From positions 1 to 34,763 of IMG/VR virus record IMGVR_UViG_3300031963_000507: DNA of 34,763 nucleotides, one strand, 5' to 3'. The stretch comes from a virus. The notes beneath the pieces were generated by a model. That model was not told where the DNA came from. It saw only the letters and a program-made list of their open reading frames with translations, and searched no databases. Position numbers and translations under genes: made by a program. This document shows positions 911 through 22,546 of this stretch, piece after piece. The stretch's first letter is position 1, and each line of letters opens with the position of its first letter.

Positions 911-1957
911 ATGGCAAAAAAACCTGTGAAGCGTTTAACAGAGCTTAACTTGCAAGAAGTTTCTCTTTGCGCACAAGGCATGAATAAAAATGCAAAAATC
1001 GCACTTTTTAAATCAGACGGCGAAGCGCAAACCCTTGCTGACGTTGTATCTGAGAGAATTAAAGAAAAATCTTTAGCCGATAGATTTACACAAGTGTGGG
1101 ATTTAACATATGCTTTGCATGAAAGTATTCGCTCAATAGTTGAGGATGATTTGTTAAAAGACAAGCAATCAATGCTTGACGAAACGCTTTCACAGTTTTC
1201 TAGCGCGATTGAGGAAGTGTTGCCCAATCTCGTTACAAATTTAAATAAAAGCGAGGCGCAAATGACTATTGATGAATTGAAAAAATCCCTTGAAACAACT
1301 CAAGCAGAAATTGCCGCTCTCAAAAAAACCAATGAAGAGCTGGCGGCTGATTTGGAAATTTTCAAGGCAATGGGCGCACGCGATAAAGCCTATTACGATA
1401 GCCTTAGCGGTGACATGCAAAAGAAATTTGGCGCAATGTCTGCTGCTGATCGTAAAAAAACTATGGACGCTGCTAATTTTCAAAAGGCCGAGCCTACTCA
1501 GGAAGAGCTTTTAAAGTCCCTGCCTGAGAATCTACGCAAGATGCTAGAGGATAGCCAAAAGCAAGCAGCGGAAGCATTGCAAAAAGCACAAGCCGCCGAT
1601 GATGCCCGCGAGCGCACCGAGTTAATTGCCAAAGCTGAAAAAGAATTCGGCAACGTACCTGGTAAATCTGAGGAAAAAGCCGAGATTCTTAAGCACCTGA
1701 AATCCGCACCTGAATCTGTGCGCAACGGTGTTGAAACCCTCCTTAAGCAATTCCAAGCGCTGGCAACTCGCGGCTTTGTTGAAAAAGGTCACGGTCAAGA
1801 TGTTGACCCGCAATCGCCCAAAGAAAAGCTCAATAAAATGGCTGAGGAAGTTGCCCTTCAAAAGCAAGTTTCTTTCCCTACTGCCTACGATCAGGTGATT
1901 CAAACCGCCGAAGGTCACGCTCTCTACACTCAAATGCGCAGCGGCGCGGCAGCTTAA
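911..1957 (+). CDS. Prohead scaffolding-like protein
   Basis: The 348-residue product is highly charged, with a long predicted coiled coil (about residues 115-150, rich in K, E, L and A). Its N-terminus (EVSLCAQGMNKNAKIALFKSD) resembles the tail end of XkdF-type proteins. The C-terminus (SFPTAYDQVIQTAEGHALY) matches the end of many phage capsid scaffold or minor head proteins. Lying between an XkdF-like protease and the cement and capsid genes, it most likely supports capsid assembly and may be cut by the upstream protease. The start ATG at 911 is 4 bp after the previous stop. The alternative is a structural minor head protein that stays in the virion. Confidence 0.65.
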   Translation: MAKKPVKRLTELNLQEVSLCAQGMNKNAKIALFKSDGEAQTLADVVSERIKEKSLADRFTQVWDLTYALHESIRSIVEDDLLKDKQSMLDETLSQFSSAIEEVLPNLVTNLNKSEAQMTIDELKKSLETTQAEIAALKKTNEELAADLEIFKAMGARDKAYYDSLSGDMQKKFGAMSAADRKKTMDAANFQKAEPTQEELLKSLPENLRKMLEDSQKQAAEALQKAQAADDARERTELIAKAEKEFGNVPGKSEEKAEILKHLKSAPESVRNGVETLLKQFQALATRGFVEKGHGQDVDPQSPKEKLNKMAEEVALQKQVSFPTAYDQVIQTAEGHALYTQMRSGAAA

Positions 1958-1993
1958 TACTAAACGTTTTTTAAAAATCTTAAGGAGTACACC

Positions 1994-2368
1994 ATGGCTT
2001 TCGATAACACCGTACAAACCGTTAACGCAGTATCCGGTGCGGATTATTCCGCCAGTCAATACCTATTCGTAACCATGGCGTCCGATGGCGAGATTGACCC
2101 CGTTGGCACGGCGGGCTTGCCTGCTCTTGGCGTGCTGTATAATGCGCCACAAGCAAAAGGCATTGCTGCTGAAGTGGCAATTTCTGGGATTGTGAAAGTA
2201 AAAGCCGGGGCACCCTTTAACGCTGGCGTCCTGATTATGAGTAGCGCGGCTGGAAAGGCCGTTACAGCAACCTCTGGCAACCGGATTTTAGGCATGGCTG
2301 TAAGCGCTGCGGCTGCAGACAACGACATTGTTAGCATTCTGTTACAGCCCTTTGGCCGCGTTGCTTAA
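1994..2368 (+). CDS. Head decoration (cement) protein, DUF2190-like
   Basis: The 124-residue product is small and rich in Ala, Val and Gly. The order GEIDPVGTAG, LGVLYNAPQAKG, ISGIVKVKAGAPFNAGVLI and GNRILGMAVSAAAADND is typical of DUF2190-like capsid cement proteins, which bind the outer capsid lattice and stabilise it. An AAGGAG ribosome site sits 7-8 bases before the ATG, which fits an abundant product. It lies directly before the major capsid gene, the usual place for this family. Confidence 0.75.
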   Translation: MAFDNTVQTVNAVSGADYSASQYLFVTMASDGEIDPVGTAGLPALGVLYNAPQAKGIAAEVAISGIVKVKAGAPFNAGVLIMSSAAGKAVTATSGNRILGMAVSAAAADNDIVSILLQPFGRVA

Positions 2369-2409
2369 TAATTGTTCAAAAATAGTGGTTTCAACTTAAG
2401 GAGAATAAA

Positions 2410-3408
2410 ATGTCCACACCTACGTTAAGAAGCGTTCACGTTGATTCCGCATTAACGAACATGTCTATTGCTTACATTCAGAAGCAATCAAACTTCATTT
2501 CAACGCAAGTTTTCCCGCTGGTTGAAGTTGATTTCGCTTCGGATGTTTATTACACATTTGACCAAGGCGACTTTAACCGTGACGAGGCTCGCCTGCGTGC
2601 GCCTGGGACTGAGTCTGTTGGCGGTGGCTTTAAAATTACTAACCAGACATATAATTGCTCTGTTACAGCTTTCCACCACGATATTGATCGGCAGAAGCTG
2701 AAAAATGCCGACCGGGTTATTAACTTAGAGCGCACTGCTGTGCAATTCGTAACCAACAAGCTGCTTATGCGCCGCGAGTTGGATTGGGTTGACAAATATT
2801 TCAAAGCGGGTGTTTGGACTGCTGGTGATATCGCCGGGGTTGCATCGGCACCTAGCACAAACCAAGTGCTGCAATGGAATGATGCAAACTCAGACCCAAT
2901 TCTAAACGTTTCGACTGGTAAATCAGCTATCCTGCAGCGGACTGGTTTTGAGCCAAACGTTCTTGTTCTTGGTTTTGAAGTTTACGAGCAACTGCGCAAT
3001 CACCCCGATATTATTGAGCGTGTGAAGTACGTTCAGAATATTGGCGCAAACCAAGCTGTGAAGGTTAATAACCAAGCTCTGGCCGATCTGTTTGACGTTG
3101 AGCGCGTGCTGGTTTCTAAAGCAATTTTGAACACGGCACAAGAAGGTCAAACCGATGTACAAAGCTTTATTGCTGGTAAGCGTGCCTTGCTCGCATATGC
3201 CGCACCAGAGGCAGCCTTAGAAATGCCATCAGCTGGCTACACTTTCAGCTGGCAGCGTTATATTGAAAGCCGCGATCCAAATGGCATTGGCTTTGATCAA
3301 TTTGAAATGAAGCATTTGAAGGCACAGCGTGTTGAAGGCGAAATGGCAATTGATCAACGTTTGATTTCTGGCACATTAGGTTATTTCTGGAACAACATTG
3401 TTGCTTAA
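2410..3408 (+). CDS. Major capsid protein
   Basis: The 332-residue product is probably an HK97-fold capsid subunit. Recognisable features are the N-terminal STPTLRSVHVDSALTNMSIAY and FISTQVFPLVEV, the E-loop-like GDFNRDEARLRAPGTESVGGG, and the central VLVLGFEVYEQLRNHPDIIERVKY. It ends in a strand-rich segment (FSWQRYIESRDPNGIGFDQFEMKHLKAQRVEGEMAIDQRL, quoted only as landmarks) usual for this capsid subfamily. AAGGAG lies 8 bases before the ATG. Its size and place after a cement gene support the call. No separate N-terminal delta domain is seen, consistent with a separate scaffold gene upstream. Confidence 0.85.
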   Translation: MSTPTLRSVHVDSALTNMSIAYIQKQSNFISTQVFPLVEVDFASDVYYTFDQGDFNRDEARLRAPGTESVGGGFKITNQTYNCSVTAFHHDIDRQKLKNADRVINLERTAVQFVTNKLLMRRELDWVDKYFKAGVWTAGDIAGVASAPSTNQVLQWNDANSDPILNVSTGKSAILQRTGFEPNVLVLGFEVYEQLRNHPDIIERVKYVQNIGANQAVKVNNQALADLFDVERVLVSKAILNTAQEGQTDVQSFIAGKRALLAYAAPEAALEMPSAGYTFSWQRYIESRDPNGIGFDQFEMKHLKAQRVEGEMAIDQRLISGTLGYFWNNIVA

Positions 3409-3422
3409 TTGGAATTAAAAAA

Positions 3423-3890
3423 ATGAAAACCCGCAAGCCGCAACGGTTCGACTTATCGAGGGATTTAGTGGTGGTAAAGCCATTTAAATTTAACGGCAAG
3501 CCTATGAATGCGGGTTTTCAATTCCACTTTAAGGACGCACAGTTTTCACTAACCCCGGCAAAAGCACGCGCAATGTTTGAGGCTGGCTTATTGCGGCATC
3601 CAGACGAGCTTACGGTGGCGGCTTTACCTAGCCCCTACATCGTAAAAATTCCTAGCACTGGCGAAGAGTTTAACTTGTTTGATATGCCCTTTAAAAAGCT
3701 ATCCGCTCTCATTCAAGAGCTTGGCTTTAAGCGCAGCAACAACCGGGAATCGCTGCAAAAACAGGTATGTGAGCATTACAGCTTGCCGTACCCGCCAGCG
3801 AAACAAGAGCTAGAAGAAGACGCCGAAGAAGATTCTGAATCATTAGAAGATGCAGCAAAGGCCGTAGAAAAAGACGCCGTTGCTGTTTAG
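3423..3890 (+). CDS. Hypothetical head-associated protein with acidic tail
   Basis: The 155-residue product is not assigned to a named family. Residues 1-55 (VVVKPFKFNGKPMNAGFQF...ARAMFEAGLLRH) look like the small beta domain seen in many phage head-region proteins. Residues ~85-120 (FKKLSALIQELGFKRSNNRE, LQKQVCEHY) resemble a SAP/HeH-type helix-extended motif, which can bind nucleic acid. The last 30 residues are strongly acidic. It starts 14 bp after the capsid stop with only a weak GGAA ribosome site. A virion or assembly role is inferred from position. Confidence 0.5.
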   Translation: MKTRKPQRFDLSRDLVVVKPFKFNGKPMNAGFQFHFKDAQFSLTPAKARAMFEAGLLRHPDELTVAALPSPYIVKIPSTGEEFNLFDMPFKKLSALIQELGFKRSNNRESLQKQVCEHYSLPYPPAKQELEEDAEEDSESLEDAAKAVEKDAVAV

Positions 3891-3908
3891 TTACAAAGGA
3901 TTAAACGC

Positions 3909-6038
3909 ATGGCAACGACTAAATATTTTTCCGGCCAGTTATCACCTTTTGGCGGCGATTCAGGAACAGGTGGCTTTCAAGGTGTAGTGCCAGCCCCTTT
4001 GCCCGGCGATGCAACCTTGCGTAATGAATACCTTCATGCAAGTGGTGTCTGGAAGTCTTTAAGCAACGCTGATTGCCTTTATATAAATGGCCTTGGTGAT
4101 AGCATCACAGCATCGTCTGTGATGTCTACTGTTTACCCTAGCACGATTAAACAATGGACTCAAAGTGAAGTTGTCCCCGCTCGTTCCTTGCGGCAGAATG
4201 GCGGCTATTTCTTTTACACCGCATCGGGCGGAACTACTGCTAGTTCTGGATCAGGCCCTACCCGTACAAACATAGCGTCAACAGATGGAACTGTTACTTG
4301 GATAAATCAGCAAGTTACAACCCAAACGCAAAACCATTCTTATCTTTATTACACTGAAATATTAAGCAATGGCCGCTTAATTTGGGATACGTCAACGGGA
4401 TATAACGGCGCACCAGGCGGGGCAGTCAAAGCAATTGTTGTGAACGGCGGCTCTAATTACAGCGCCCCTACGCTGGTTAATACCGATGGGATTGAAGCAA
4501 CCTTTACGCTTTCAAATGGCGTTATCACTGCAATCAACATTCTGTCGCCTGGCAACGTAAACAACGTAGGTGTTTTCCCGACCATTAGCGATCCTACTGG
4601 TAGCGGCGCGGTGATTAGTTGGGTCTTTTATCCTAGCGGAACCTTTGGCGTTTCAGGAAGCACAACGGCTGGAATGGTTGCCCGCTTGCCGGATGTTATC
4701 GCAAGTAAAAATGATATCATTGTGGTTTATGGCGGCACAAACGACTTAACGCAAGACGTACCAGCGGCAACAATCTTTGCTAACTTGCGCACCTGTTATG
4801 AGCGTTTAATAGATGCTGGCAAAAAAGTTATTGCCGTTCCTATTTCGCCTAGGTCTGGACTAACTACGGCGCGTCAACGCACAATGAATCGCGTTAATAC
4901 GCTTATTGTAGATTATTGTGCGCGAAAAAGTTACATCAACCCATTAGGCTATAGAGATATTGCTCTTGCCGATCCCCGCGTTTACTTGACGGATGGAACA
5001 TCGGATAACGTACCGATTGGCGGTGCGTCAAACGTTGTAGGGGCGATGACGTATGACGGCCTGCATCTTTCCGCACGCGGCGCTTTCTATCAAGCTATGA
5101 CAATTATTGCGGCTGCGGAACGTTGGATTGCAAGACCTCAGACAGCGGGAATGCGAGCGGCAACTCAATTTGACGCTTATGCAGCAAGCGACAATCCGAC
5201 CGGGAATCTATTAGAAGCATATCCTTGGACAGCAAACACGGCTGTCGCTGTTGGTGACTTGGCGCGGAACGATTCGCCCGCCCGGGTTTACTATTGCACA
5301 TCGCCCGGAACAACTGCTAGCAGCGGCGGACCAACAGGAACGGGAAGCAGCATAACCGATGGAACTGTAACGTGGGCTTTCGCACACTTAGCAGGCATGT
5401 CTGTTTTCAATAGCGGCACAGGTTCCGCGCCATCAGCGGCGGCTGGTGTTACCATCACGGGTAACTTAGCGGGCGGCTATTTCATGCAGCGTAACAGCGG
5501 CACAGCAGCTGGAACTTTAACGGCGGCGATTGAGTCACCGTGGAGCAACGGTCAAGTTGGCGCACGGCAATCATTGGCATTCTCTTTAGGCTCTGGAACT
5601 TCAACGGATTTGTGGCTGTTGCAATTTGGCAGCTATGTCTATCAGCGTTATGGTTTATTGCCTGCTGATTTAGCAAACACACTTGTTGAGTTTGAGGTAG
5701 AATTAGAGGTTTCAAACCTTGCAAACTGCAATGGCATTTACCTACAATTGTATTCGGATTACGCATCAAGCCCACCTAACGATTTCATTGTAGCGCAAGC
5801 AGGAGCGCTTGGTGGCGGTTCTGGTCTTAATGCAACCTTGCCGAATAGCTCTGGTGAGATGCTTAGCTATCCTAATAATGGTCTCATGACTATTCGTACA
5901 AAACCAGTGCGGTTGCCACTTGATTTGTCAACTTTATCAACATGGCTATTCTTTAGTTTTAACGCCAGCGGCGGCGCTAACAGCGCAACGGGTACGTTTA
6001 AAATAAATCGTTTTGCCTTTAGAAAGGTCTTATTATGA
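3909..6038 (+). CDS. Virion SGNH-fold hydrolase with inserted modules
   Basis: The 709-residue product carries all SGNH/GDSL landmarks: GDSIT (Ser65), YGGTND (Asn278) and YDGLHLS (Asp383, His386). Such enzymes remove ester groups, often acetyl groups from polysaccharide, so this may trim capsule or O-antigen on the host surface. The gap of ~210 residues between blocks I and III is much longer than usual. It holds a GTTASSG..DGTVTW module (~106-131) and a GGSNYSAPT-type beta module (~170-240). A second GTTASSG..DGTVTW copy sits at ~467-489, and the C-terminal ~200 residues look like a beta-rich binding domain. AAAGGA precedes the ATG. The location directly after head genes is unusual for a receptor-degrading enzyme. 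Confidence 0.8.
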   Translation: MATTKYFSGQLSPFGGDSGTGGFQGVVPAPLPGDATLRNEYLHASGVWKSLSNADCLYINGLGDSITASSVMSTVYPSTIKQWTQSEVVPARSLRQNGGYFFYTASGGTTASSGSGPTRTNIASTDGTVTWINQQVTTQTQNHSYLYYTEILSNGRLIWDTSTGYNGAPGGAVKAIVVNGGSNYSAPTLVNTDGIEATFTLSNGVITAINILSPGNVNNVGVFPTISDPTGSGAVISWVFYPSGTFGVSGSTTAGMVARLPDVIASKNDIIVVYGGTNDLTQDVPAATIFANLRTCYERLIDAGKKVIAVPISPRSGLTTARQRTMNRVNTLIVDYCARKSYINPLGYRDIALADPRVYLTDGTSDNVPIGGASNVVGAMTYDGLHLSARGAFYQAMTIIAAAERWIARPQTAGMRAATQFDAYAASDNPTGNLLEAYPWTANTAVAVGDLARNDSPARVYYCTSPGTTASSGGPTGTGSSITDGTVTWAFAHLAGMSVFNSGTGSAPSAAAGVTITGNLAGGYFMQRNSGTAAGTLTAAIESPWSNGQVGARQSLAFSLGSGTSTDLWLLQFGSYVYQRYGLLPADLANTLVEFEVELEVSNLANCNGIYLQLYSDYASSPPNDFIVAQAGALGGGSGLNATLPNSSGEMLSYPNNGLMTIRTKPVRLPLDLSTLSTWLFFSFNASGGANSATGTFKINRFAFRKVLL

Positions 6039-6328
6039 TCGGCGTTTATAAATTCGCAGCTGTAAAAGAAAAGATTCAAGATCTGATTGCTCAGGGTCTT
6101 TATGATGACAACATCAATCGTGATTTTTACGATTTCTTAAAGCTCAATAAAACTGTGAAGCTAAAAGATAAAGAAGCAGAATTCGTAAGCCCTGCCTCTG
6201 CTGAATCTTTAAAGGATGCCTTTGAGCAATACATAGCTGATTTTGAAGCCGCAGGCGGCGACAAAGAAGCTCGCCTTTTAGAAATTGAAGCGGGCTTTGT
6301 TGAAATATTAAACGCTCGCTTAGGATAA
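6035..6328 (+). CDS. Hypothetical small helical protein
   Basis: The 97-residue product is acidic and mostly helical (AVKEKIQDLIAQGLYDD, SAESLKDAFEQYIADFEA). No family was recognised. Its start overlaps the stop of the SGNH gene in an ATGA, indicating coupled translation and a role in the same virion module, perhaps as a chaperone or small structural part. AAAGG lies upstream of the ATG. Confidence 0.55.
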   Translation: MIGVYKFAAVKEKIQDLIAQGLYDDNINRDFYDFLKLNKTVKLKDKEAEFVSPASAESLKDAFEQYIADFEAAGGDKEARLLEIEAGFVEILNARLG

Positions 6329-6334
6329 AAAATT

Positions 6335-6760
6335 ATGGCTGCTTTTAACAAGTTTAATGCCTTTGTAGAGGATTTAGCGGAAAGGGTGCACAACCTAGGC
6401 GCTGATACTCTAAAGGTTATGCTTACGAATACCGTGCCGCTTGCGACGAATTCTATTCGCGCCAACCTGACGGAAATAAGCGCGGGCAACGGTTACACGG
6501 CTGGAGGAAACAGTTGCACGATATCATCAAGCGGACAAACTGCTGGTGTTTACAAGTTAGTCCTGGCCGATACAATTTTTACGGCAAGCGGCGGCAGCAT
6601 CGGACCATTCCGTTACGCGGTGCTTTACAACGATACACCGACCTCACCAGCCGACCCGCTCATTGGCTGGTATGATTACGGCGCGGCTGTAACTTTGCTT
6701 GACGGCGAAACGTTAACTATTGATTTTGACGCCACAAACGGCGTTTTAACGGTCACATGA
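6335..6760 (+). CDS. Phage virion structural protein
   Basis: The 141-residue product begins with a helix (FNKFNAFVEDLAERVHNLGADTLKVMLTN) and continues as beta structure (NLTEISAGNGYTAGG, SIGPFRYAVLYNDTP, DPLIGWYDYG, TLTIDFDATNGVLTVT). This pattern is common in small proteins encoded next to phage head and fibre genes. It is not an enzyme by any visible motif. It probably forms part of a head- or tail-attached fibre, inferred from neighbours and the typical pattern. Confidence 0.6.
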   Translation: MAAFNKFNAFVEDLAERVHNLGADTLKVMLTNTVPLATNSIRANLTEISAGNGYTAGGNSCTISSSGQTAGVYKLVLADTIFTASGGSIGPFRYAVLYNDTPTSPADPLIGWYDYGAAVTLLDGETLTIDFDATNGVLTVT

Positions 6761-6761
6761 T

Positions 6762-7163
6762 ATGTCAAATGACATCACCCTTCCAGGCACGGGCGCGGTA
6801 GTTAATACCCGCCAGCAATCTGATCTATCACATAATCAGGTTGTTGAAGTTGACGGCGAGTTATTAACAACCCTGCAAAGTTTAACCCTGGCATTGAATA
6901 ATATCTCGAAATCAATTGGCCTTATGATGCCGGATGCTTCAGGCCGGATGCGCGTTTCTTTAGATGCGGCAACAAACACAGGCAGCATAGGCAACATTGG
7001 CACGGTGACTACTGTTACTGGGGTCACTACAGTGACAAACGTGACAGCGGTTGCAAGTTTGACAAACCAGATTTCAATCGGCAGCTTTAACGCAAACGAT
7101 CAAGTTCCCGCACTCATGAATACAGCGGTCCGCCTCAATAGACAACTTATCACAGTGAGCTAA
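6762..7163 (+). CDS. Virion structural protein with VTTVTG repeats
   Basis: The 133-residue product follows the previous gene by 1 bp. A central stretch (~85-105) is an imperfect repeat of T-V-T-T-V-T-G/N units flanked by GSIGNIG, a thin beta segment found in small phage fibre-associated proteins. The C-terminus (QVPALMNTAVRLNRQLITVS) is helical. No catalytic motif is seen. A fibre or connector role is inferred from its position between the SGNH and kelch genes. Confidence 0.55.
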   Translation: MSNDITLPGTGAVVNTRQQSDLSHNQVVEVDGELLTTLQSLTLALNNISKSIGLMMPDASGRMRVSLDAATNTGSIGNIGTVTTVTGVTTVTNVTAVASLTNQISIGSFNANDQVPALMNTAVRLNRQLITVS

Positions 7164-7166
7164 CCC

Positions 7167-8585
7167 ATGCCGACAACCGTAAATTTACGCAAAATTCTTG
7201 ACAGAAAACAGTTTGAGTTTGCAACGCCTGCTCCAGTAGCTACTGCTGCTGGTATGTGTATTTGTTCAAGCCGCCACTATAGGCAGCAGCAGTTATATTT
7301 AACCAGCAACACTGTTGCTTATATTTTTAACCCATTAGAAGATGGATTTACTCAGATACCATCCCCGGCTCTTGCTGGAACTTTTGGAGCAGGAGCGGCG
7401 GCTGTTTCTTCGGCAGTCGGTCCGTCCGGCACGGCAACAGGTGGCTCAACAACAACGGTTGCAACTGGCTTAAACTTACAGCGGGATTTACGCGGCTATT
7501 CAATCCACATTACGGGCGGTCCCGGCGCTGGTGACGTGCGAACGATTGCTAGCAATACATTAGGGGCAACTGCTACAATCACTGTTACCAGTGCTTTTAG
7601 CGCCACAATAACTTCCTCCTCTACATATCGCCTATTGACGCCGCGTTGGTACGTTGTTGGCGCTGGTACGCTTGCCTCAGGCTCATTTAAACATTACGAC
7701 CTAGCAACAAACACATGGACAACCTTAGTAAACACGGGATTGCCTGCAACGATTGGTACGGATAGCAAGTTGGTTTCAACGCCTAGCTGGATTCTGACGG
7801 GCTTTAACTCTTTTGCAACAGGAACCGCAACGGCTGGAGCTGGAACAACTTTAACAAACAGCGGCAAGGCATGGACAACAAACCAGTGGGCAAACTATCA
7901 AGTGCGCATCACCGCTGGTACTGGCTTAGGTCAAATAAGAACGATTGCAAGCAACACAGGAACGGTTTTAACTGTTTCAGCGGCTTGGACTACAAACCCA
8001 GATGCAACGTCTGAATACTCCATTGAGGGTAACGACGATTTTATTTATTATATGGGTAACAACGCTGTTACTCTTTATCGTTACAGCATTAGTGCCAACA
8101 CTTGGACAACTTTATCGCCGGGGGCAGCACGAGCGGCAGCGCCGGGCGCGGGTATGTCTGGCCATTGGGTTTATGCGGCAACGGATGCGGCTTGGACGGC
8201 GGAGAACGCAATCCTTAACGGCAGGCGTATTTACTCTTTCCGGGGCGGCGGCAGTGCTGTTTTAGATTATTACGATATCGCAGCCAACACATGGGTTAGC
8301 GGCGTGCCGTATAGTCCCTTAACGGAAACGTTCACCACTGGGACTAAGTACGTTTATTATAAAGACTTTCTTTATATAACAAAAGAAAACACCGGGCGTT
8401 GGTTTAAATTCAATATCGTGACTGGTGAAATGGATGGATGGGGGACAATGCTTTACCCGCAAGGAACGGCTGTTGTCGGTGATACTGCTTTTGATGTCAC
8501 CTATGTCGACGGTGCAACAGAGGTTGAATTTATTTATATGCTGCTCAACACTTCAAGTGTGATGTTGCGGCAATTTGACATATGA
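7167..8585 (+). CDS. Kelch-like beta-propeller virion protein
   Basis: The 472-residue product has repeated kelch-type signatures: YDLATNTWTTL (~178), YSISANTWTTL (~306), YDIAANTWVSG (~369) and a variant FNIVTGEMDGW (~415). These point to a beta-propeller that could bind a host glycan or another virion protein. Two copies of another module (ITGGPGAGDVRTIASNT at ~115-131 and ITAGTGLGQIRTIASNT at ~248-264, each with a following AF/AWxxxxxSxY segment) appear inserted between propeller blades. The start is 3 bp after the previous stop, and the end overlaps the next gene by ATGA. A capsid or fibre role is inferred. Confidence 0.65.
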   Translation: MPTTVNLRKILDRKQFEFATPAPVATAAGMCICSSRHYRQQQLYLTSNTVAYIFNPLEDGFTQIPSPALAGTFGAGAAAVSSAVGPSGTATGGSTTTVATGLNLQRDLRGYSIHITGGPGAGDVRTIASNTLGATATITVTSAFSATITSSSTYRLLTPRWYVVGAGTLASGSFKHYDLATNTWTTLVNTGLPATIGTDSKLVSTPSWILTGFNSFATGTATAGAGTTLTNSGKAWTTNQWANYQVRITAGTGLGQIRTIASNTGTVLTVSAAWTTNPDATSEYSIEGNDDFIYYMGNNAVTLYRYSISANTWTTLSPGAARAAAPGAGMSGHWVYAATDAAWTAENAILNGRRIYSFRGGGSAVLDYYDIAANTWVSGVPYSPLTETFTTGTKYVYYKDFLYITKENTGRWFKFNIVTGEMDGWGTMLYPQGTAVVGDTAFDVTYVDGATEVEFIYMLLNTSSVMLRQFDI

Positions 8586-9214
8586 GTTTGTTATTACTTT
8601 TTAATGGAGGCGCTGGCGGAGGCGGCAATTCGTACACCCTGCCCACAAATCCGGGTGACTTTGTATTCTCTGGTATCCCCGTTAATATTCTTGCTGGAAA
8701 AAAAATAACAGGGGATGCAGGCGGCATAGCATTAACAGGCGTTAATGCCCCACTATTATTAGGGAAAAGAATTTTTATAAACTCAGCATCATTTACATCC
8801 AGCGGCGTTGATGCTTCCACGGTTATCAATAGAATATTAAATGCGAGTTTAGGCGCTTTTAATTCTGTATTTTTTGGCGCATCTATTCTCATTGGAAAAA
8901 AATTTCTTGCTGCTGGCGGCGCGTTTTCTGCTGTAGGCACTGCCATCTTACTGCGCAAAGGATTTGTTTTAAAATCAGACCAAGGAACTTTTACGCGGTC
9001 AAGCCCTAATGTGGGTCTGTTTTTTCAGCGGCTGTTAAGCGGTGAGCGTGGAACGTTCACTATAAGCGGAATTGATATTTTATTTCAGCGAGCCGGGCAA
9101 CCGCCAAGCTATAGGCGTGTAAAGACTATTTTTGAATCTAGATTTATTAAAGTCAATCCTGTATTAAGAAAGGTAAGCATTGAGTTTTTAGAACGAATTG
9201 TGAGGGTAAAATGA
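8582..9214 (+). CDS. Short-repeat virion protein
   Basis: The 210-residue product is built from about six to seven degenerate units of ~20-22 residues of the form G-x-F-x-x-x-G-x-x-x-x-(L/I)-L-x-G-K. Examples are GDFVFSGIPVNILAGKK, GAFNSVFFGASILIGKK and GTFTISGIDILFQRAG. It starts with a Gly-rich MSLLLLFNGGAGGGG leader, a pattern frequent in phage proteins encoded near tail or head fibres. The C-terminal ~40 residues are basic. It overlaps both neighbours by ATGA, so it is translated with them. The function is unknown; a repetitive surface or stem protein is likely. Confidence 0.55.
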   Translation: MSLLLLFNGGAGGGGNSYTLPTNPGDFVFSGIPVNILAGKKITGDAGGIALTGVNAPLLLGKRIFINSASFTSSGVDASTVINRILNASLGAFNSVFFGASILIGKKFLAAGGAFSAVGTAILLRKGFVLKSDQGTFTRSSPNVGLFFQRLLSGERGTFTISGIDILFQRAGQPPSYRRVKTIFESRFIKVNPVLRKVSIEFLERIVRVK

Positions 9215-9489
9215 CATTGCTACAATTCCCGGCTAAAGATTCAGACGAAGTTCTCGACTATCAAATAGACTGGGCCGCGAATTTAGCCGCTGGCGAAACT
9301 ATTTCTACCTCAACATTTACGGTTGATAATGGCCTTACTATCCAGAGCCAATCAAACACCACAACAGTAACTACCGTATGGCTTGCCGCTGGCACAGAGG
9401 GTTTGACCGCAAAGATTCTTAACCGGGTTACTACATCAGGTGGGCGCACCATGGATCAGACCGTCACCTTGCCGATTAGAAAAAAATAA
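9211..9489 (+). CDS. Ig-like small phage protein (fibre/adaptor type)
   Basis: The 92-residue product matches the common phage pattern PAKDSDEVLDYQIDWAANLAAGETIS ... STFTVDNGLTIQS ... TVTTVWLAAGTEGLTAKI .. NRVTTSGGRTMDQTVTL, an all-beta Ig-like domain often annotated as a fibre-tail or head-fibre adaptor (landmarks abbreviated). It closes the ATGA-coupled chain that starts at the kelch gene. Its presence suggests that the preceding proteins are mounted on the virion through it. The exact attachment site (capsid or tail) cannot be read from sequence. Confidence 0.65.
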   Translation: MTLLQFPAKDSDEVLDYQIDWAANLAAGETISTSTFTVDNGLTIQSQSNTTTVTTVWLAAGTEGLTAKILNRVTTSGGRTMDQTVTLPIRKK

Positions 9490-9521
9490 GCGACTCGCTA
9501 AAATCCAGCCACTGTATTCCC

Positions 9522-9546
9522 TTGACGCATTCGCTTCTGATAGAAT
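9522..9546 (+). promoter_or_regulatory. Candidate promoter of the neck/tail gene block
   Basis: The only sizeable gap in the head-neck region (80 bp) contains TTGACG at 9522-9527 and TAGAAT at 9541-9546. The 13-base spacing is too short for a standard sigma-70 promoter. It does fit the Caulobacter-type housekeeping form (TTGACGS, 10-14 bases, GCTANAWC), with GATAGAATC as the downstream element. The gene at 9571 follows. The host hint is an inference. Confidence 0.4.
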
Positions 9547-9570
9547 CGGTTAAATTCATAGGTATTAATC

Positions 9571-10035
9571 ATGACTTGGACATTCAGCGGCGATCCGTCA
9601 TATTCCTTACTCGACCACGTTCGCAGCCTGATAGGCGATATTGATTCTACGGATCAGCTTGTTAGCGATGAAATTATCAACTTCCAGTTAACGCAAAATG
9701 CTAACGATGTTTTTCTTGCGTCTGAGGCTGTTTGTTTGGGGTTGGCCGCTAAGTTTGCCCGCAAGGTTGATACCTCTGTTGAATCGGTGCGCGTTGCCTA
9801 TAGCAGCCTTCATAAGCAATACATTGAGATGGCGCGGCGCTACAAGCAGCAGGCGGCGAACTCCTCCTCTACATCGGGCGGCGGCGGCATTGGTATTCCT
9901 ATTGTTGCTGGGATTAGTATTTCTGAAAGCGATTCGCTCAAAGAAGATTCAGACCTGATACAGCCGCGTTTTGAGCGCGATCAGTTTGATAATGATATGT
10001 CCTATGAGGATAGCCGCTGGAGGCGCAACCCATGA
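9571..10035 (+). CDS. Head-tail connector (adaptor) protein
   Basis: The 154-residue product has the mostly helical fold of phage connector adaptors: SLLDHVRSLIGDIDSTDQLVSDEIINF, then helices carrying ASEAVCLGLAAKFARKVD and VAYSSLHKQYIEMARRYKQQA. The Ser/Gly-rich linker and the C-terminal FERDQFDND signature are typical of this family, which docks under the portal. It is the first of four neck genes in canonical order (adaptor, closure, gp10-like, terminator). Confidence 0.75.
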   Translation: MTWTFSGDPSYSLLDHVRSLIGDIDSTDQLVSDEIINFQLTQNANDVFLASEAVCLGLAAKFARKVDTSVESVRVAYSSLHKQYIEMARRYKQQAANSSSTSGGGGIGIPIVAGISISESDSLKEDSDLIQPRFERDQFDNDMSYEDSRWRRNP

Positions 10036-18725: not shown

Positions 18726-19433
18726 ATGGCATCTTTGGTCTGGCCTGTTGACGTTCGCCCTTATTCACAGGAATTTTTCATAGAGACAAACGTTTCTAGA
18801 TTCACATCTCTTTTTACAAAGCAGAGCCAGCTGCTGGAGCGGCAGGGAAAAAGGTGGGTTTCTGTTGTTTCTTTTCGTGGGTTCTATGAGGGTGCGCTGC
18901 GCATCGAATCGCTTCTAGCGAAAATGAATGGCGGCATGACAACGGTTTTAATGCCGGATTTTCGGCGGCTAGCCCCTCTAAATCCTCTTAATTCTATCCG
19001 TGATTATTATACGGAATCAGGCACAACAACGTTTACCGATGGCGCAACCTTTGATGATGGCGCTGTTTTCTTTTCTGGTACGCTGGCCGATTATTTGGCG
19101 GATATTGAAATATACGCAACCGGGTTTGATAACGAGATTTTTTACAAGGGCGCTTTCCCGCTGCAAAAAGTTGTTAGTGCTGGTGAGATTTTACAAACCA
19201 GCGAAGGCCGCGTGCATATGATTATTGATGATTCGACCGCTGATTCTTTGGGCAATGGCTCGTTTAAGGTTTACCCTACGCTTAAGACGTTCTCATATAT
19301 TGGCAGCCGTCTAATTGACCTCATGACTGCGCCTAGGGTATTAATGAGGGTAACGGCAAACGAATATATGCGCAACAGCAGTTCTGCACCGTTCAACTCA
19401 GAATACAACTTTTCTATGGTTGAGGAACTATGA
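18726..19433 (+). CDS. Minor tail protein
   Basis: The 235-residue product begins LVWPVDVRPYSQEFFIETNVSRF..LFTKQSQLLERQGKRW, a pattern seen in phage minor tail proteins of the tip. It continues with FYEGALRIESLLAKMNGGMTTVLMPDF, a variable middle, and an acidic C-terminus. It starts 2 bp after the hub stop and overlaps the tailspike by ATGA. A linking role between hub and spike is inferred from order. Confidence 0.6.
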   Translation: MASLVWPVDVRPYSQEFFIETNVSRFTSLFTKQSQLLERQGKRWVSVVSFRGFYEGALRIESLLAKMNGGMTTVLMPDFRRLAPLNPLNSIRDYYTESGTTTFTDGATFDDGAVFFSGTLADYLADIEIYATGFDNEIFYKGAFPLQKVVSAGEILQTSEGRVHMIIDDSTADSLGNGSFKVYPTLKTFSYIGSRLIDLMTAPRVLMRVTANEYMRNSSSAPFNSEYNFSMVEEL

Positions 19434-22400
19434 CAATTTACACGCCAGACGAAATAATCCCCGCCTCTGGCAACGTGCCAAAAGATAAGTTGCGCGAGTT
19501 TATTCGTCAAACGGGTGTTGCTAATATCAATCGCTTAAAATTTATTCGCATACAAGACCAAGCTGGCCATATTGGTGATTATAATTCCGATACCGGATCG
19601 GGAAGTTCTGATCACGTTGCTTTTGGCAATGCTCTTGATGCGATGCTGGCAGACGAAGATGCCGTTTTTGAAGGTAACGGCCAGCCTCTATTCCTTGGCA
19701 CTACAAACTTAGGTGCAAAGCGTATTTCACCCCGTGCGCGGTTCTACTGGAACGGCACGAGGATTTATGCTGATACCCGCCCCGGCGGTGTTTACAACAC
19801 GGGCGGCATAGTAACTCTCAATGCGCCGCAGGGCATGTACCATGAGGATTTAATTCTTAATGGGTTAACAGAGCACCGTATCACGTCAATATCAGTATCA
19901 GGAACAACCGCAACGGTTACAACGGCGGATGCCCACGGCTACGTTCCCAATCAATTAACGTACTTATGGGGCGTTGAGCAGCCCACTGGATCTCTAACAA
20001 CTATCGAGACAATTCTTTCAGCAAGGGAATATAATGGACGCAAAGTTGTTTTAAGCGTTCCTACCACAACGAGCTTTACTTTTGCCGTGACGGCAGGAAC
20101 CCCTACAAACCCCGTGGTGCTGCGCGGGCGTTGCGCTTGGACTAAAAATATTCTTTTCGGCGGTGATGGCTTGCGGCTGTTTACTGGCCAGTATGTTCAC
20201 CTTAACCGCGTGCGATTTGAATCGATTAATGATGCCTACGTTCGCTATACAACAACAACAAACAACTCAACAATTCAAGCAAACCCCTATGCGCCAGTTG
20301 CCGCTGGCTTCTTAAAGATGACGGATTGTCATGCCATCAATTGCGTGCAGGCTTCCACTTCTTTCGGCGGTGCATATAACGTTGACATAACGGGTCACAC
20401 CTATGAAGGCGGCAAGGCTTCCAGCTTTAAATTCGCGTCACAACTCGCGGGCGGCGGTTCATTCCGCTATCACGGTCAAGTGCGAGATACTGTGCCAGCC
20501 GCTTTCGGAGGCTTTGATGCATCGCATCCTAACTGTTATGCGGGCGTAGGATTTGTTGCGGAAGGCGTCAATTTCTTTGATGTCGACCTTTTGCTTGATG
20601 GCGTGCGCGAAGGTTTCAATATTCTGCCTAACCGCGATGCGGATGCTATCGCAACATCTAAAACTGCAAACCATGGCCACATACGAATCAATGCACGCAA
20701 TTGCGGCGATCCTTTAAACAGGCGCTTATGGAACGTGGGACGGATTGAGGATAACTCTACGCAAACCTCTGTAATTGACGGTTGCCGCAACATAACTTTT
20801 GATATCAATGTCGAAAACTTGCGCGGGTGGGCGATAAGAATTGGTAACAACTTAGGCCACATGAATACCATTTCTGGGAAAGTGCGCACTACACGTTGCT
20901 TAGGCGCTCTTGTGATGCGCTTGCGAAACGGTGGGCGCAGTAAGATTGAAGTTGAAGGCGATGGCACTGGCGCAAGCACTGCTGATTTGTGGGTAACAAA
21001 TACAGTTACTTATAAAGTTAGTGAGGGCATGATCTATAATGGTGGCGTCTGGCGCTGTGATGTAACGCCTGGCACAAATTCCACTATCGGGCCTACGGGA
21101 ACCGGGGTTATCGCAACTGCAGACGGTTATACTTGGAAGTATATTCATGCTAGCACTGGCATTGTAATTGATGCAGACGAATCCACATCAATGATGGAGG
21201 AGATGGATCTTGATTTAATATATCGCAATAGCCCGGTTGGTGGCGGCGTATATTTAAGCAAGTTATACGGCGCAAGTTATAATGTGGTTTCCACTGGCAA
21301 TAGTGGCCCAGGCTTAAATGAGCAGGCGCTTACAAACTGCCTTGCAAAAAATATCATGGTGCACAGAAACGGCAGCACTCAGGTTAATTCGACTGGTTTA
21401 ATAAATCACAACTACGCCGTGCTTGATTATGATTGTGCTAACAATGCGTTCAATCCGCATACAATCGATTCTTATCAAGACGTTGTCATCAATAAGCGTA
21501 CCATTCGCAATGCCGCGTCAACCGCTAACATCAATCTAAACGGGCTGCGCCCCGATGGCATCACCATCACAGAACCCGCCGCAATGATTAACTGTACAAC
21601 CGTGCAGGATGTTTTGAATAACTTAGGTTATGCCTACAAGCATTTAATGGATAAGAATAAATTTAATATAGAGGTTCCCGGTATCGCCGATGCGGGGAGC
21701 GCAGGCGGAACGCCAGGCGTATATCCGGGCGGCTCTCGTTTACGCTTAGGCTCTTTTGGCACTACGCTACAAAAGGGCGGCGCTGCTGCTGGCTCTATGA
21801 CGTATGACTGCAAAAACCCCGGCATCTATGTACCGAACGCATATGCAGCAGGCGCACCCCCGGTGGCAAAGCGGATTAACGGCGCAAACACATTTACCAG
21901 CGGCTGCGGCTGGGCAGCTACTAATAATACTGTTGTTGGCTGTATCGCAGTTTATGAAGTTGTCAACTTTGGCGAAGCTGGCGCAACGGGCAACTTAGGA
22001 ACCGAACCGCCAGCCGATACGTTTGGTATTGTTGACGGTAGCACTATTAATACCAATGCGCATTGGTGGCTCTACCTGAATAACTATAAGGATTTAGGCA
22101 GCGCCGGATCGCCGCTGTGGGCATCGGGTCAAACCGTACAGCCGGGCGATATACGCAGCGTGGGCTTTGCTCTAACAAGCCTCACAGGCAACGGCACAAC
22201 CGCAACAGCAGTTAAAGCTAGCCATGGTCTTTCCACCGGGGATAAGCGTTATATTGCTCGCGCTAATGGCCAATTCAGCACCTATAATCAAACAACGCAA
22301 AATTTCGACTTGGTAACGATAACCGTTGTTGATGCGAACACGTTTATCTTCCCTTCTTTAGGCACGGGAACCGCAGCCCCATCTACAGGAAACACTGAAA

Positions 22401-22546
22401 TTGTTTGTTTGACGGGTTGCTATGAAATGGTAGCACCGAATACAAGAACAACGGGTTCAACTGCCCCGGTAGGGCGTGGCATAGTGTCTGGTAACTATTT
22501 CCTTGCTGTTGCTGGCGCGGGCGTTAAGTTTGTGAAGGTGGCATAA
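19430..22546 (+). CDS. Tailspike, pectate-lyase-like beta-helix
   Basis: The 1038-residue product has a short N-terminal attachment part, then DHVAFGNALDAMLADEDAVFEGNGQPLFLGTTN (split landmark), the usual entry to a right-handed beta-helix spike. The long helix region holds many N-x-(I/V) steps. Inserted modules are seen: HGYVPNQLTY..FTFAVT at ~150-225 with a related HGLSTGDKRY..TFIFPSL at ~913-985, and a GGVWRCDVTPGTNSTIGPTGTG segment at ~535-560 like those in the SGNH protein. It probably recognises or degrades surface polysaccharide. No catalytic residues could be named. Confidence 0.75.
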   Translation: MTIYTPDEIIPASGNVPKDKLREFIRQTGVANINRLKFIRIQDQAGHIGDYNSDTGSGSSDHVAFGNALDAMLADEDAVFEGNGQPLFLGTTNLGAKRISPRARFYWNGTRIYADTRPGGVYNTGGIVTLNAPQGMYHEDLILNGLTEHRITSISVSGTTATVTTADAHGYVPNQLTYLWGVEQPTGSLTTIETILSAREYNGRKVVLSVPTTTSFTFAVTAGTPTNPVVLRGRCAWTKNILFGGDGLRLFTGQYVHLNRVRFESINDAYVRYTTTTNNSTIQANPYAPVAAGFLKMTDCHAINCVQASTSFGGAYNVDITGHTYEGGKASSFKFASQLAGGGSFRYHGQVRDTVPAAFGGFDASHPNCYAGVGFVAEGVNFFDVDLLLDGVREGFNILPNRDADAIATSKTANHGHIRINARNCGDPLNRRLWNVGRIEDNSTQTSVIDGCRNITFDINVENLRGWAIRIGNNLGHMNTISGKVRTTRCLGALVMRLRNGGRSKIEVEGDGTGASTADLWVTNTVTYKVSEGMIYNGGVWRCDVTPGTNSTIGPTGTGVIATADGYTWKYIHASTGIVIDADESTSMMEEMDLDLIYRNSPVGGGVYLSKLYGASYNVVSTGNSGPGLNEQALTNCLAKNIMVHRNGSTQVNSTGLINHNYAVLDYDCANNAFNPHTIDSYQDVVINKRTIRNAASTANINLNGLRPDGITITEPAAMINCTTVQDVLNNLGYAYKHLMDKNKFNIEVPGIADAGSAGGTPGVYPGGSRLRLGSFGTTLQKGGAAAGSMTYDCKNPGIYVPNAYAAGAPPVAKRINGANTFTSGCGWAATNNTVVGCIAVYEVVNFGEAGATGNLGTEPPADTFGIVDGSTINTNAHWWLYLNNYKDLGSAGSPLWASGQTVQPGDIRSVGFALTSLTGNGTTATAVKASHGLSTGDKRYIARANGQFSTYNQTTQNFDLVTITVVDANTFIFPSLGTGTAAPSTGNTEIVCLTGCYEMVAPNTRTTGSTAPVGRGIVSGNYFLAVAGAGVKFVKVA

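Follow-up and report, generated by a model that had tools for sequence, protein, structure and literature searches.

Phages with fibres at the junction of head and tail are already known. Lactococcal siphophages (936 group, TP901-1) possess a neck passage structure with collar fibres that end in carbohydrate-binding modules at this junction (PMC6669499), and in the Anabaena myophage A-1(L) five bead-chain fibres are tied to a 15-mer neck ring (PMC10966104). For the Alishewanella siphophage LSH1 an extra, GP4-like module, gp34–gp36, was published in 2026; its three proteins were found in the virion by mass spectrometry, and it is present in only half of the related genomes (PMC13243795). Related proteins are found in fibre I and its adaptor from the Ralstonia podophage GP4 (PDB 8JOU; Pfam families PF23140, Gp80, and PF23148, Gp77). 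Here we analyse a 34.8-kb record from an uncultured bacterial virus (IMGVR_UViG_3300031963_000507) over its full length of 34,763 nt, referred to as the window, in which an insert of seven genes (positions 3909–9489) lies between the capsid gene and the neck genes. This insert probably encodes a second adhesion apparatus, namely a bead-on-rope fibre of the GP4 type that would be attached to the neck of a siphovirus.

The window shares the adaptor family and the fold of the bead with GP4. In the GP4 relative BcepMigl a bead, a rope-like protein and an adaptor are encoded near one another, as in the window, but a pectin-lyase-type gene lies between the rope and adaptor genes. GP4 is a podophage, whereas the window virus is read as a siphovirus because of its gene order (capsid, neck, head closure Hc1, Neck1, tail terminator, a gene in the position of the major tail protein, chaperone, tape measure, J). 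No GP4 counterpart was found for the SGNH, p133 and kelch proteins of the window, and its bead candidate p141 is not a Gp80 by sequence. GP4 itself is said to have a 15-fold adaptor ring around a neck-side adaptor. Structure 8jou contains three Gp77-type and ten Gp80-type chains, numbers that fit one rope, five bead dimers and three adaptors.

Like the window virus, LSH1 is a siphophage, and its module comprises a payload protein with an unmodellable part, a GP4-like fibril protein and a protein with an immunoglobulin (Ig) fold. In contrast to the window, this module follows the lysis genes; in the passages cited the authors leave its attachment site and the identity of the Ig protein open, and the likeness is drawn from their description (PMC13243795). 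The lactococcal neck passage structure differs in that a single protein combines a BppU-type ring domain with a coiled coil, with no Gp77, beads or rope in the description cited (PMC6669499); BppU_N is absent from all insert proteins (Pfam, E ≤ 1). The fibres of A-1(L) resemble the fibre proposed here, again by description, but the ring protein is gp5 and the fibre proteins gp80–gp82 are encoded far from the neck genes (PMC10966104).

The insert and its borders comprise the following features.

2410–3408, plus strand: major capsid protein, left border (phrog_1005, E 1.2e-88)
3423–3890, plus strand: p155, ordinary capsid-neck gap gene outside the insert (gap-filling open reading frame in relatives)
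3909–6038, plus strand: 709-residue protein with SGNH/GDSL hydrolase domain, candidate glycan esterase (PF13472, E 1e-13)
6035–6328, plus strand: p97, small protein (nine matches among the loci scanned, all of the window's lineage)
6335–6760, plus strand: p141, proposed fibre bead (phrog_644, E 2.9e-20; AlphaFold2 model with a predicted local distance difference test score, pLDDT, of 95)
6762–7163, plus strand: p133, fibre-type protein and near-constant kelch partner (phrog_32409 tail fiber, E 0.004)
7167–8585, plus strand: kelch-repeat protein, proposed glycan-binding part (PF13418)
8582–9214, plus strand: repeat protein of 210 residues with 22-residue repeats, proposed rope
9110–9211, plus strand: C-terminal tail of the repeat protein, proposed Gp77-docking units (four arginines at exact period 9)
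9211–9489, plus strand: Gp77-family fibre-tail adaptor, Ig-like (PF23148, E 2.2e-25)
9571–10035, plus strand: first neck gene, head-tail connector type, right border and proposed docking site (phrog_1732, E 3.9e-19)

A preliminary description of this DNA had stated that connector genes usually follow the capsid gene closely and that 6 kb are inserted here. The comparison with relatives bears this out. Among 164 locus rows the gap between capsid and neck genes is at most 700 bp in 127, 700–2100 bp in 24 and more than 2100 bp in 13, the tally being made on best hits in fetched rows with both genes, not dereplicated. The window's own lineage, represented by four contigs, accounts for nine of these 13 rows, and the remaining four come from L038, L112, L351 and L406. 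The 6-kb spacing is real and unusual. The interval from 3408 to 9571 holds eight open reading frames (ORFs) on the plus strand, as described before, but the eight do not form one module. In 64 of 74 short-gap loci over half of the gap is taken up by a single ORF, which matches the profile of p155 (E < 1) in 35 of the 64. Since p155 is an ordinary gap gene, the insert proper consists of seven genes, in the order SGNH hydrolase, p97, p141, p133, kelch protein, repeat protein and Gp77. The ATGA overlaps of four bases that were thought to link most of them are present at three of the six internal junctions (SGNH/p97, kelch/repeat and repeat/Gp77); the others (p97/p141, p141/p133 and p133/kelch) are spacers of 6, 1 and 3 bases, respectively.

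The last gene of the insert, earlier called an Ig-like adaptor-type protein, indeed belongs to PF23148, the fibre-tail adaptor family of GP4. The match exceeds the Pfam cutoff across the full domain (89.4 versus 27 bits, profile positions 1–84 of 84), and the similarity to GP4 chain 8jou_D is detected by phmmer (E 3.1e-6). In contig L060, which shares 50% identity with the window in the tail protein, a Gp77 domain (PF23148, residues 10–88, E 1.6e-21) forms the N-terminus of the neck protein itself (neck profile E 2.6e-42). In the neck proteins of L067, L081, L084 and L112 this position is taken by a different N-terminal domain of Ig-like/BppU_N type, and a standalone relative in phage CRP-6 (L009) matches BppU_N (PF10651, E 1.9e-6). 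BppU_N has also been proposed to build the collar ring of lactococcal phages (PMC6669499).

Directly upstream of Gp77, the repeat protein recognized in the preliminary description has a top period of 22 residues, which was reached in none of 2000 shuffles. In its C-terminal tail four arginines follow each other at a period of 9; 105 of 20,000 shuffles attain four. This feature is enriched in front of Gp77: at least three period-9 arginines are present in 31 of 66 proteins encoded next before Gp77 (dereplicated set), but in just 10 of 362 ORFs located 4 kb or more from it (Fisher 2e-20). Periods of 5–8 and 10–13 yield just 1–3 of the 66 neighbours, the controls for this comparison of periods being 819 other ORFs, including genes of the same cassettes. 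Repeats of 20–23 residues were detected in 26 of 54 testable neighbours versus 4 of 277 controls (threshold 0.5), and 19 of the 66 combine repeats, here at a looser threshold of 0.3, with the arginine tail. The Gp77-neck fusion of L060 is directly preceded by the gene of a repeat protein that ends in an arginine tail of this kind. The strongest computed period of this protein is 14, and a 21-residue periodicity assigned by eye was therefore dropped. Neither a profile of eight docking tails nor the rope-like gp28 of BcepMigl retrieved a relevant chain from the PDB (best E 0.2 in both cases, unrelated). Slicko01, which the LSH1 paper names (PMC13243795), contributes nothing to the comparison of docking tails, as its positions 1–50,000 carry no annotated fibre or tail gene.

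The model of p141 superimposes on GP4 fiber I chain 8jou_a with a VIA-align Z score of 9.3 (root mean square deviation 3.4, 117 residues, 9% identity). Below the top three matches come other chains from phage tails or necks, and the first row from outside phages scores Z 3.9. The matches listed include no neck-fibre chain from A-1(L) or the lactococcal neck passage structure, but such chains are not thereby excluded. A gene slot is also shared with Gp80. From the 80 loci returned by the kelch-family scan, three already in the set were omitted; the 77 that remained include two of the window's lineage (L408, L409). At about 0.75–0.95 kb upstream of kelch, 10 of the 77 loci encode p141 and 6 encode Gp80. 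Within 6 kb of Gp77, p141 is present in 13 of 66 loci, Gp80 in 23 and both in none (p 0.0025). Homology of p141 to Gp80 by sequence was considered and dropped, because BLASTP found no real match to Gp80 (BcepMigl gp29, E 4.7) and profile alignment was weak; the two are linked by structure comparison only. Judging from the model, p141 is best called a putative bead that shares the fold and the gene slot of Gp80, not a member of this family.

The SGNH domain proposed earlier lies above the Pfam cutoff of PF13472 (52.6 versus 32.9 bits), and its Ser, Asn and Asp/His blocks are present (GDS 63–65, GGTND 275, DGLH 383); block I (GDS) was assigned by us, not by Pfam, about 180 residues N-terminal of the Pfam match. 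Residues 460–549 of this protein resemble residues 540–632 of a 1038-residue protein encoded after J (19430–22546) that we read as spike-like (22.6% identity, E 7e-4). This shared stretch is a weak hint that both proteins may meet similar glycans, perhaps via a common glycan-binding module. As a counterpart of the SGNH protein, EBPR siphovirus 2 gp77 ("similar to tail protein") was considered and dropped, as its sequence reads like the C-terminus of a tape measure protein. The kelch repeats barely exceed the Pfam cutoffs (PF13418 24.5 versus 21.6 bits, PF01344 20.3 versus 20.1 bits). The repeats of the supposed kelch-like propeller are thus confirmed; the propeller fold is not, as the AlphaFold2 model, based on an alignment of four sequences, has a mean pLDDT of 55 and is too poor for a fold search. 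p133 is found near the kelch gene in 71 of 77 kelch loci. In L462 and L463 the kelch genes form a tandem pair. p97 matches no Pfam family above the cutoff (best E 0.057).

Comparison of gene orders had been suggested to see whether the block is swapped as a unit, and a five-gene core does appear intact elsewhere. Contig L410 contains p141, p133, kelch, repeat protein and Gp77 in the order of the window, with identities of 73, 47, 69, 30 (over 125 residues) and 41%, respectively; the repeat protein has 461 residues in L410 versus 210 in the window. The flanking genes are those of a T4-like phage, with a single-stranded DNA-binding protein on one side and a baseplate hub and a DNA end protector on the other. 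Since the order is conserved in this T4-like contig, the core evidently moves as a unit, also into unrelated viruses. In L480 the cassette is bordered by the gene of a head-tail adaptor (phrog_442) and that of a major head protein from a different family (phrog_10); in L417 it is embedded among neck genes, with a head-closure-like gene ahead of it and the tail terminator gene behind.

Relatives point to the neck as a likelier attachment site than the head shell, because Gp77 belongs to the fibre-tail adaptor family of GP4 and forms part of the neck protein in L060, and because phages with different capsids carry the cassette directly before or among their neck genes (L480, L417). No link of any insert component to the capsid shell was found in the relatives or in the sequence comparisons made. 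Hence, of the glycan-binding or glycan-modifying head fibres in the preliminary description, the glycan-type fibre module can be retained in view of its domains and the inserted adhesion block, but its likelier location is the head-tail junction. Searches of openly licensed PMC papers yielded no description of the period-9 tail, the Gp77-neck fusion or the placement of such a cassette between capsid and neck genes.

We propose the following arrangement. A ring of Gp77, of presumed stoichiometry, would sit on the neck protein or encircle it. The repeat protein would be the rope, whose C-terminal R-x-x-x-V units of 9 residues may dock on successive Gp77 subunits and whose approximately six 22-residue repeats would carry the p141 beads by a presumed bead-rope contact. 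The kelch protein and its partner p133 probably form the head or outer part at the tip, which would bind host surface glycans. The SGNH protein may be an added esterase of this outer part, with esterified host surface glycans as its putative substrate. In adsorption such an apparatus would supplement the virus's own J-type tail-tip protein and the downstream spike-like protein. A general docking code is a tentative extension of this proposal: each C-terminal R-x-x-x-V unit might grip one Gp77 subunit of the neck ring, and the count of 20–23-residue repeats before the tail might set the number of beads.

Several observations weigh against a GP4-type fibre at the neck. The Gp77-neck fusion was seen in one contig only, and the cassette of L480 has no detectable Gp77. 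L393 and L396 carry Gp77 and p141 3–7 kb upstream of the capsid gene; in both, the capsid-neck gap keeps its ordinary single gene. The genes that follow Gp77 are mixed and encode connectors, but also head proteins and proteases. Among 59 of 65 such proteins (one short and five very long ones were omitted, and one protein may match several families), three match the head-tail adaptor Ad1, two another head-tail adaptor, two Neck1 and four a podoviral-type tail protein; further families include major head proteins and head proteases, the commonest with three members each. The period-9 motif test is failed by 35 of the 66 proteins next before Gp77; some of these are a bead or a doubtful ORF, and elsewhere the tail-bearing protein lies at least one gene away. 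For p141, Foldseek gave no significant row against the PDB, no Pfam family matched at E ≤ 1, so that membership in PF23140 is not indicated by sequence, and hhalign with Gp80 reached only 48.8%. Better fold matches than GP4 fiber I are a Klebsiella phage baseplate protein (Z 12.6) and the T4 baseplate chain 5iv5_BJ (Z 12.4), which we take to be the baseplate wedge protein gp7.

With T4 gp7 as the best-scoring fold group of p141, an ordinary tail-fibre cassette has to be considered, whose products would sit on the distal tail as tail-tip or side fibres and whose place next to the capsid gene would be an accident of insertion. Cassette genes indeed follow J in L283 (p141, kelch and repeat protein) and L303 (p141 and repeat protein), relatives are encoded among the minor tail genes of mycobacteriophage Nicholasp3 and Gordonia phage GMA1, and EBPR siphovirus 2 has p141 after its tape measure gene. 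We regard this explanation as unlikely in view of the fusion of Gp77 to the neck protein in L060, the position of the cassette amid the neck genes of the window, L480 and L417, and the naming of the Gp77 family after the GP4 fibre-tail adaptor, which is said to encircle the adaptor on the neck side.

Less likely still are head fibres, i.e. a decoration of the capsid shell by the insert proteins. The position directly after the capsid gene would suit them, as would the PHROGs label "head protein" of the Gp80 family phrog_240, but this label is contradicted by the Pfam name GP4 fiber I protein. Furthermore, the cassette occurs in phages of other capsid families (phrog_10 in L480) and, in the T4-like L410, distant from any capsid gene found. 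Together with the adaptor-neck fusion of L060, its presence in phages with other capsids lowers the probability of this reading. It is highly improbable that the insert is non-virion cargo acting inside or outside the host cell, as might be expected from a hot-spot with glycan-enzyme-like proteins (L038) or HNH-type endonucleases (L111, L118), because the adaptor, bead and repeat proteins are of virion-type families and the GP4-like module of LSH1 was detected in the virion by mass spectrometry (PMC13243795).

The capsid-neck gap of the relatives looks like a hot-spot. Besides the genes of L038, L111 and L118 just named, it contains methyltransferase-like proteins and repetitive proteins of 1488 and 295 residues in L112, all of these being read from translations. 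The gap of L351 encodes a Gp80 bead (PF23140, E 4.7e-29) and that of L406 a LamG lectin domain (PF13385, E 2.2e-12). In L097 an iterated Gp80 profile picks out the gene that directly follows p155 (E 2.3e-17), although the Pfam score of this gene lies below the cutoff (E 0.002).

Some further observations concern the surroundings of the insert. Window and L004 are 89% identical over 1895–3531 and 99% over 3622–6108. The jump falls close to the insert's left border, with L004 lacking some 90 bases of p155, and may mark a recombination point. Look-alike proteins with the motif GGGPSL.GFDFE.L adjoin the neck gene in L038, L060 and L112 and are possibly glycan- or nucleotide-modifying. A distal-tail-type protein (phrog_1302, 18726–19433) is encoded after J, which is an unusual place; it may attach the next, spike-like protein.

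GP4-type fibres, whose structure was solved in a podophage, are now linked to a mobile cassette in siphoviruses and in a T4-like contig. We propose an anchoring rule in which Gp77 connects the period-9 tail to the neck by binding both. Parts for host recognition may occupy the neck more often than annotation implies, because searches for receptor-binding genes usually concentrate on the end of the genome that encodes the tail tip. If the docking code is true, repeat counts would encode fibre length and ring occupancy, and any glycan-active domain could be plugged in. Consequently, many unannotated repeat proteins of phages, perhaps including the unmodelled stretch of LSH1 gp34, would acquire a role.

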